Assembly (NCBI GenBank): GCA_030272155.1 | Contig: CP126195.1 | Span: 5,935,001-5,999,000 of the forward strand | Length of the DNA stretch: 64,000 nucleotides | Reading direction: 5' to 3' | DNA from: Tetradesmus obliquus | Lineage: Eukaryota; Chlorophyta; Chlorophyceae; Sphaeropleales; Scenedesmaceae | Part shown: positions 18,799-24,003 of the stretch, in pieces | Layout: each line of letters starts with the position of its first letter | How positions within the stretch are numbered: position 1 is the first letter of the stretch | Position numbers and translations under genes: made by a program | Notes under the pieces: model-generated | Database searches by the model: none | Seen by the model: the letters and a program-made list of their open reading frames with translations, nothing else | Told to the model about the DNA's origin: nothing

Positions 18799-21700
18799 TC
18801 AGCTGCTGCCGACCTTCACCTTGCCCAGCACCACGTCCTCCATCAGCTGCACCGGCGGCTGGCTTGTGCCCGTGAACAGCTTCAGCTGCTCCACCGCCTG
18901 GCCCACAAACATGGCCACGCCATCAGCCAGCAGGCAGCCGGCAGCAGCAGCGTCCCGCAGCAGGCGCGTCTCGCGCGGCGTGTACACCGCGTCAAACACG
19001 ACCTTGAACTGCGTGCAGGCAAGCACATCAGCCGGCGTGTGCAGCAGGTGTCAATGAAGCTGTTTGGAAAAAGGTGCAAGCTGGCTGGACAGGGGTACAA
19101 GGCAGCCGTGCAACAGACCAGCAGCGGATAGACAGCTGCCTGTATGATCGTTTCAAGAGCACATTGCCAGGTATGTACATGTGTGAGCGGTAGTCAGAGA
19201 TCACAAAACGGCTGCAAGGCACAACGCACAGCTGTTCAAGCAAATGCCATACTTACGTTGCCGACTGCCGCTGTTGCCACTGGCGTCTCCTCCACATTTG
19301 GCACCATGCCCACACTCGTGCTGTTAGCCAGCACATCTGCTGAAACAGCACCCGCCTGCAGCTGCTCCCAATCCACCACAGTGGCACCGCCAGGCACTGC
19401 TGCTGCCAGGGCCTCTGCGCGCGCCTTGTTGCGGTTGGCTATGAGCACTGTGGCGCCGCGGGATGCAGCTCCAAAGGCGAGAGCACGGCCTGCGCCGCCG
19501 GCGCCGACAACTAGGAAGGTCTTACCCTGCGAGCATGTGTAGAACAGCACAATAGAAGAGTCAGATGAGGTGCTGACACAGATGTGCATCAAAGCAAGCG
19601 CCTACTGAGCAGGCACCCACCACTAGGAAGGTCGTACCCTGCGAGCATGTGTAGCACGGCACGTTTCAGTGAGCAATGCAAAGACGCCTGCTATGCAATG
19701 TTCATTTGCTGCACCGACAACCAGGAAGGTTTTGCCCTGCATGCAAGCGCAGTACGTGCCGTAAGAATGAACTGGTGAAATGAGGTTCTATAACAGATGT
19801 GCTCGCCATCCAACATGTATCAGTGGGCACAGATGGCATGCGCATTCACAGCCGATGTATTACGCATGCCAAACCAGCGTAACTGCGTCTGCAGCTGTGC
19901 TGCAGGCGCACACACACCACCAACCGCAACGTGCAACACCAAACCATAATTTCCTGGTTTGACAGCGCACCTGCAGCGGACTCGGCTGCCCCTCTATGCT
20001 GCTGCTGCTGCTGCTGCTGGTTGCTGCTGCTGCGTCGCTGCTGCCAGCCGCCAGCACACGCTCAATCGCTGAGATGGCAGCGATCCAGTCTGTGTTGTAC
20101 CCCTTGTAGCCGCTGCCATCTGCTTGCCGTATGAGCGTGTTGCAGGCCCCGATTTGGTCTGCCACTGGGTCCCTGCTGCTTGCTGCTTTGTGTGCTGCCT
20201 CCTTGTGGGGGATAGTGACACTGAAGCCCTGTAACACACACAAGAGAGCGACCAAGGGCGGCAGGCAGGACTGCTGTCAGAACTGTCAGGTGTATGTGGC
20301 GTGGACCGTCGCCGCTGGCGGCATGTGCGTGCCTCTGCAGCCGCACGATAGTCAATAGTCAGGTGGTAGGCGCAATGACATACCGCTTTAACACAATGTT
20401 CAGACCAACAGCAACGCAGGGCAGCAGCCACCTGCCAGTGCAGCTCCTTGACAACATGCATGCTGCGCCACATGTGTACTTTGCCTGTATGGAAACAACC
20501 AGCTTACATGTATCCCTAATGGGAAAGGATACACACAGCTGCTGAATGTGATACCCACCTGGAAGTCGTGCTCCCTGAAAGCATCCATGAAGCGAGGCAG
20601 GTCATCAACAAGCAGCGGCACAAACACGCCATCAAAGCCTGCAAGAGGCAGCAGCAGCAGCAGCAGCAGCAGCAGGTATGATTTAGGCAAGCATTGCATT
20701 GTCCGTGTTGTGCTTGTCAAGTATGCCTTGTAAGACCCCTGCTTTGAAAGGTGGGCCGCCGCAGCCAGTGCTAGCAGAGCAGTTATATCAGCTTCACCAA
20801 GCTGCGTACACTATTTGGCGCCAACCACAGAACATTAAGCCAAAGGCCTCAAAGCCCCAAACCCAACTACCCAGCAAGACCTATCAGCACCCCTGCCTCA
20901 CACGCACCTAGGTGCCTGAATGCTGTGCTGTGGATAAACAGGCTTCTGCACAGCTATCCACCAGCAGCCTTCCGTTACACGCGAACACCCCAGCCTCACA
21001 CCCACCCACCTAGGTGCCTGAATGCCGTGTTGTGGATGAGCGGGCTCTTGCTGTGGTGGATAGGCTTGCCCATGATGCCAAACAGCTGCGTGTCGGGCCC
21101 CTGCTGCGCAAAGCGGTACAGCTGCGCAATAGTGTGCTGCCTGTTCTATCAGCTTTACCCAGCTGTACACAATATGCTTGACGCCAAAACAGAAGCATGC
21201 ATCAAGCCAAAGGCGAAATCCCAACCACCCAGCCAAACAAATCAGCACCACAGCCTCAGCCCACCCACCTAGGTGCCTGAATGCTGTGTTGTGGATGAGC
21301 GGGCTCTTGCTGTGGTGTGTATGAGCACGTGTTTGCACAGCCACCCATCTAGTAGCCTTCAACTATCCATGTACCCCAAACACCCCAGCCTCACACCCAC
21401 CCACCTAGGTGCCTGAATGCCGTGTTGTGAATCAGAGGGCTCTTGCTGTGGTGGATGGGCTTGCCCATGATGCCAAACAGCTGCGTGCCGGGACCCTGCT
21501 GCGCAAAGCTGTACAGCTGCTGCAGCTGTGCAATGGTGGGCTGCCCTGGTGCGCTGGCCCGCGCATCTGACAGAGCAGCAAACGTGAGGTGGCCGCCGTA
21601 CTTGGCTGCAAGCAGGCGCGTGATTTGGCCTCGCTCCCCCATGGCTAGGGCAATGGTGGGCCCTGCAAGCAAAACAGGGCAAGAGGTTTAGCAAGACTAG

Positions 21701-24003: not shown

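Follow-up and report, generated by a model that had tools for sequence, protein, structure and literature searches.

Direct copies of exon edges and their splice sites in introns of Tetradesmus obliquus: probable leftovers of serial short tandem duplication

Tandem duplications that touch splice sites have been described in several systems. In potato, an intron-exon boundary of the RdRp gene is crossed by a tandem duplication that spans the acceptor together with the 5' edge of the exon, and a further 83-bp tandem duplication lies within an intron of this gene, according to extracts of the published account (PMC4974935). In intron gain of the Rogers type, an intron is made from exon sequence through a duplicated AGGT, as excerpts of two papers describe it (PMC3443670, PMC4974935), and the corresponding part of a review names tandem duplication as the one proposed intron-gain route that has been demonstrated in vivo (PMC3443670). 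Fill-in of staggered breaks yields short tandem duplications, a signature called abundantly observed in genomes in an excerpt of another report (PMC8355091). For young Daphnia introns, staggered breaks have been proposed as lengthening the introns, and exon ends are directly repeated in them, as extracts of that study state (PMC4202315).

The copies of exon edges examined here, from the green alga T. obliquus, resemble the duplication in potato RdRp, the nearest published case found, in that they cross a splice junction. The extracted potato account describes the gain of a new intron, with most of the duplicated exon becoming coding (PMC4974935), whereas the alga's copies stay in existing introns, leave the protein unchanged, occur at about 8% of the tested edges and are sometimes serial. 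As in the excerpted accounts of Rogers-type gain, tandem duplication and splicing leave the protein intact (PMC3443670, PMC4974935); unlike there, an existing intron would, on our reading, have been lengthened. Direct tandem copies of short segments are also what staggered-break fill-in produces; the alga's units are longer than the 43-bp overhangs in the excerpted report (PMC8355091), and a repair origin is putative. Exon-end repeats measure 4-12 bp in the extracts on Daphnia (PMC4202315) and up to 142 nt, with splice sites, in the alga. The alga's copies differ from the known cases in remaining within introns that already exist, in recurring serially and in their density across the sampled DNA. 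The titles and abstract openings listed in the literature searches describe no exon-edge copies at such density, which is no proof of absence. Duplications inside genes are reportedly the subject of one further study, which is cited for new introns.

The window, by which we mean the whole stretch of DNA analysed, comprises 64,000 nt (C5:5935001-5999000) of a 104.7-Mb genome in 17 contigs. Positions 18799..23802 on its minus strand encode DHQ-SDH, a bifunctional dehydroquinate dehydratase / shikimate dehydrogenase, in 8 exons with an intact product (Table 1). The gene model is that of the coding part only, from a downstream ATG to the stop; the reading frame is open further 5', so the true start may be earlier. 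The product matches the Pfam families DHquinase_I, Shikimate_dh_N, Shikimate_DH and SDH_C, and its top PDB match is 2gpt, over residues 22-531. A protein search for a second DHQ-SDH copy found none, the remaining matches having E >= 0.07, and a paralogue was therefore rejected as the origin of the copies described below. When the whole window was compared with the rest of the genome, all of the matches listed fell in two CTG/CAG runs (simple repeats skipped). CAG/CTG trinucleotide runs also lie at window positions 22857-22961 and 20648-20675, where they reach the acceptors of DHQ-SDH exons 2 and 5 or come within about 10 nt of them.

Table 1. Exons of DHQ-SDH and copies of exon edges in the window (d, distance from the real junction in nt)
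Feature	Position in window	Strand	Detail
DHQ-SDH exons 1-4	23802-23540, 22854-22742, 22486-22292, 21662-21405	-	joined exons end in stop
DHQ-SDH exons 5-8	20638-20559, 20228-19971, 19526-19257, 19008-18799	-	joined exons end in stop
Exon 3 5' edge copy with acceptor, intron 2	22561..22640	-	junction 138 nt upstream of real one
Exon 4 5' edge copy 1, acceptor AG, intron 3	21741..21803	-	d = 127
Exon 4 5' edge copy 2, AA replaces acceptor AG, intron 3	21887..21960	-	d = 249
Exon 4 5' edge copy 3, acceptor AG, intron 3	21977..22021	-	d = 350
Exon 4 3' edge copy A with donor, intron 4	21246..21317	-	local alignment
Exon 4 3' edge copy B with donor, intron 4	20984..21125	-	142 nt, 95% identity
Exon 4 3' edge copy C, intron 4	20888..20935	-	local alignment
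Exon 7 5' edge copy 1 with acceptor, intron 6	19609..19662	-	d = 112
Exon 7 5' edge copy 2 with acceptor, intron 6	19711..19740	-	d = 210
End of last exon and adjoining bases, copied past stop	18669..18744	-	real = 18776-18851
Second predicted gene: edge at 61006 copied with acceptor	61083..61147	-	d = 115
Same predicted gene: donor-side edge at 62178 copied	61923..61980	-	d = 232
Same predicted gene: weak copy of acceptor-side edge at 61655	61733..61770	-	outside spacing/splice-site set

Local alignment of the DHQ-SDH introns against the exons located the edge copies. A preliminary description of this DNA had claimed that exon edges are repeated at four internal junctions, with one copy of the exon 3 5' edge, three each of the exon 4 5' and 3' edges and two of the exon 7 5' edge, and all of them are present in these numbers. 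The partial copy of the last exon that it placed beyond the stop was also recovered, just outside the interval 19250-22640 assigned to the duplications. In intron 1 (window 23097-23499), a 26-nt unit around GCTGTGCTGTGTGCTACAGC occurs four times, with about 170 nt between three of the copies, so intron-only duplication also happens in DHQ-SDH.

The wider survey covered 284 kb of this genome, made up of the window and 22 sampled stretches of 10 kb each (a 23rd, the satellite stretch L021, was omitted). Genes were predicted with a purpose-built gene finder, trained on DHQ-SDH and then on its own predictions, which yielded 198 introns flanked on each side by a well-scored exon; in a check, 8 of 9 predicted proteins or parts had Pfam matches at E <= 1e-5. 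For each edge, 60 nt of exon were compared with the exon's own intron at a score of at least 28. Direct copies adjoining their source, the form that small tandem duplication takes, were found at 30 of 372 edges (about one in twelve), and inverted copies at 0 of 372. The first random stretches contributed 19/274, the window 5/48 and the later stretches 6/50, these last having been picked after the idea had formed yet included in the final training of the gene finder; outside the window the count was 25/324. Controls gave far fewer matches: 4/1564 in non-adjacent introns of the same gene (3/1412 outside the window and 1/152 inside), 3/246 in the intron on the exon's far side, and 2/92 and 1/102 for segments from exon interiors. 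Against the introns of other genes, the mean was 0.4 donor and 0.2 acceptor edges of 189 each, compared with 15 and 19 in the edges' own introns. Three spurious DHQ-SDH introns consisting of copies entered the other-gene, exon-interior and unevenness tests; they were dropped from the main edge counts and from the alignment, spacing, splice-site and intron-length analyses. Same-strand self-matches scoring at least 44 and at most 1.5 kb apart numbered 144 in the window and 20 sampled stretches, many of them from the satellite stretch, and 0 in one dinucleotide shuffle. In the sampled DNA, exon-edge similarity in the edges' own introns thus exceeds that in the controls. Exon-edge copies are found across the sampled genome, beyond chance, and are not special to DHQ-SDH.

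The matches were distributed unevenly over the stretches (p = 0.03): L030 had 6/20 edges with copies in 10 kb and several stretches had none. Some of the 30 edges are doubtful, namely L023 9414 (CAG-rich), L029 7357 (a 36-nt minisatellite), L030 9294, where the unit is 100 nt without aligned intron and the predicted junction may therefore be wrong, and L025 3484 and L038 3554, 3411 and 3914, where the gene finder mistook copies for exons. These edges were retained in the edge, spacing, array and splice-site counts; L023 9414 was dropped from the codon counts of the other loci only.

At 23 of the 30 edges, the first copy lay 83-141 nt from the real junction (median 126), and 23 of 39 copies were found at 80-145 nt, where 18% would be expected under uniform placement. 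Seven edges carried two or three copies each. Five of these arrays advance in nearly even steps, at 120/238/361, 127/249/350, 113/222, 112/210 and 126/256 nt, and the remaining two are uneven (92/229 and 126/312 nt). The near-even steps support the view, already put forward for DHQ-SDH, that the short and diverged copies reflect a repeated process and not one event. Complete tandem units with a spacer of 0 were found at L032 junction 7062 (120 nt) and L037 junction 6688 (134 nt), and a nearly complete unit with a spacer of 5 at L017 junction 9466; two further spacer-free units, at L029 7357 and L030 9294, must be regarded as doubtful. Some intron homology persists, at z > 2, in 9/23 copies. 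In a neutral tandem simulation, the intron part fell short of the similarity to be expected from the exon part in 13/23 copies (P <= 0.05), and 23/23 were on the low side, which counts against a tandem origin. Introns that host copies had a median length of 447 nt (25 introns), compared with 284 nt for the 161 without (p = 7e-6), a difference that holds partly by definition because each copy adds length.

We consider it likely that serial small tandem duplication lengthens introns and that the edge copies are its leftovers, seen through selection on exons. In this mechanism, genic DNA would be duplicated in tandem time after time, in short units mostly measuring about 80-140 bp. Where a unit spans an exon/intron junction, splicing would go on using the copy contiguous with the remaining exon, and the other edge with its splice site would be stranded in the intron, leaving the protein unchanged and the intron longer by one unit. 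Repeated events would place copies at one, two and three times the unit length. Once stranded, a copy would decay freely while selection holds the real exon, so that junction pairs stay recognisable longer than intron-only duplications of the same age. Visible duplications would lie at junctions, and some at coding ends, largely because pairs held by an exon remain recognisable, and selection should purge duplications deep in exons. Direct orientation, spacing, arrays, the decay pattern and the excess over controls are all observed in the sampled DNA. The units presumably began as full tandem copies, the duplications may have come from staggered-break repair or slippage, and the copies are probably unused in splicing.

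Four very similar copies are not accounted for by this reading, as the intron homology that a tandem unit should show is missing from them. The copies at L023 1479, L036 7127 and L038 5249 have one difference per 34-46 bases, and the copy near L025 3484 has 1 in 65; their homology ends about 2-10 nt past the junction (for L025, as judged by reading). The L036 7127 copy also has a 1-nt insertion, and CTG runs lie on either side of L038 5249. These cases could be explained by gene conversion that acted later on the exon part, or by copying of the edge only. Inserted elements were rejected as a source of the spacers, because the two that were searched, in L023 (75 nt) and L036 (100 nt), matched only themselves at E <= 10. 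Introner elements occur in many similar copies genome-wide, and both of these spacers are single copy.

An alternative is that splice junctions are themselves hot spots, where an edge is copied together with its splice site, for instance because breaks arise there in connection with transcription or splicing. We regard this as rather unlikely. In its specific form, which we also hold to be unlikely and slightly more so, a transcription- or splicing-tied process would repeatedly copy a junction-centred piece of about 50-90 nt to a place about 120 nt into the intron; introns would then grow outward from their own junctions. The rate at which 40-nt windows are repeated in the intron, counted outside the 64,000-nt window, does peak at the junction (7.5% at -20 and 7.6% at 0) and falls to 0.5-1.3% at 60-100 nt in the exon and 2.0-2.7% at 60-100 nt in the intron. 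The aligned exon part is also short, at most 68 nt in 28/32 alignments (a 33rd has no exon part, and DHQ-SDH copy B is outside the set), and the four very similar copies contain little intron. However, the intron part alone would reveal only 4/23 junction copies, so most intron-only duplications of equal age go unseen. About 7 intron-only events were recognised, merged by hand from 13 matches in 574 windows of introns without edge copies; another 25 matches, in 149 windows from introns that do carry edge copies, were excluded as belonging to the edge duplications. By a rough calculation, some 7 such events against 30 edges come near one common rate, given the 4/23 detectability. An idealised neutral simulation gave junction copies a detection advantage of only 1.23, below the ratio of roughly 30:7 seen, which leaves some excess unaccounted for and hints at targeting beyond detection bias; the hint is weakened by the 4/23 calibration, and we do not claim such targeting.

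Copies at coding ends, where no splice site is present, and the whole tandem units described above also argue against junction hot spots. Copies followed predicted coding ends in 3/26 cases, one of which is probably a gene-finder split, and the DHQ-SDH stop is a further case. Predicted starts were preceded by a copy in 1/13; the L038 cases at starts and ends probably stem from a single gene that the finder divided. In L036, an ion-channel gene has part of its last predicted coding exon repeated past the stop (341-409 against 578-646, 91%), resembling the DHQ-SDH last exon.

It has also been suggested, in the preliminary description, that the copies could act as decoy or alternative splice sites. 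That selection keeps them for such a role appears improbable to us. The splice dinucleotide is kept in 27/29 junction-reaching copies (GC taken as donor), 25/29 copy sites exceed the 5th percentile of real sites in score, and 9/29 are at least as strong as their own real site. Furthermore, intron positions 1-3 have 1 mismatch in 69 in copies whose alignment takes in 4 or more intron bases, and 40/51 single differences in DHQ-SDH, counted pair by pair, are silent. Against this, the copy sites are weaker on median (donor 8.4 against 11.1 for real sites, acceptor 7.3 against 9.8), mismatch in the exon part does not decrease towards the junction, and use of the copy site would shift the frame in 19/29 and keep it in 10/29. 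Copies are about 10% diverged from the exon on average and carry indels, some of which break the frame. A copy that is free to change, paired with an exon in which mainly silent changes are tolerated, is expected to show mismatches at the three codon positions in a ratio of about 1:1:2. Outside DHQ-SDH, mismatches at codon positions 1, 2 and 3 were 38/396, 41/391 and 67/391 (84/606 in aligned intron), a ratio near 1:1:2, and these copies show no coding constraint. Alternative or mutually exclusive exons would be constrained, and outside DHQ-SDH we found this near-neutral ratio and frame-breaking indels. A role as decoy or alternative sites is therefore not supported by the sequence, and we found no sign of function in the edge copies as read from their bases. 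Of the two readings offered in the preliminary description, intron growth by tandem duplication is the one favoured by the exclusively direct orientation, the spacing, the arrays and the longer introns.

DHQ-SDH itself departs from the 1:1:2 ratio (p = 0.008), with 27 variable third-position columns against 10 at first and second positions. Coding constraint on copies as a general rule, which these third positions had suggested, was rejected because the other genes are near 1:1:2; the excess of silent differences in DHQ-SDH persists nonetheless. The tandem duplication model leaves this excess unexplained, and part of it may reflect the choice of a striking gene by eye. One explanation would be unequal recombination between diverged haplotypes or hybrid genomes, starting from conserved exons and leaving the edge of the other haplotype in the intron, which would account for silent differences and unmatched introns. 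It would fit the DHQ-SDH columns, the copy at L029 5367-5446, which differs at 7 bases in one codon position only (silent by reading), and the very similar copies with unmatched introns. We nevertheless judge it very unlikely, as amino-acid changes (L023, L025) or a 1-nt insertion (L036) are present even in very similar copies, the other loci are near 1:1:2, and no second DHQ-SDH copy was found in the protein search. An assembly artefact, a possibility raised in the preliminary description, is hardly credible for copies that differ from the exon by about 10% on average, with indels, and that form graded arrays in genes on several contigs.

If serial tandem duplication is the source, about 8% of the tested exon edges would hold a readable record of intron growth, readable because selection freezes one partner of each pair. 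Each pair would yield a unit length and also a date, since most differences at codon positions 1 and 2 reflect change in the copy, and the rate and step size of intron growth would thus be measurable genome-wide. The copies also provide a natural set of duplicate splice sites, mostly a few bases off the used site, which should be useful for studying spliceosome choice. Gene finders may mistake edge copies for exons, as happened with the finder used here.

Other repeats were noted in the sampled DNA. The stretch L021 is mostly near-identical satellite over its 10 kb, with repeats mainly at about 312-375 bp. In L029, the 5367-5446 copy, whose counterpart is at 5504-5583, lies near an acceptor; the gene reads like a DEMETER-type DNA glycosylase, and the part scanned gave no Pfam match. 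Within the window, neighbouring tandem arrays with 144/288-bp units occupy 36359-37211 and 37353-38527, and their consensus units look mutually reverse-complementary by eye. Tandem arrays of 279-bp and 345-bp units, with long open frames, lie at 39933-42298 and 42450-44034.
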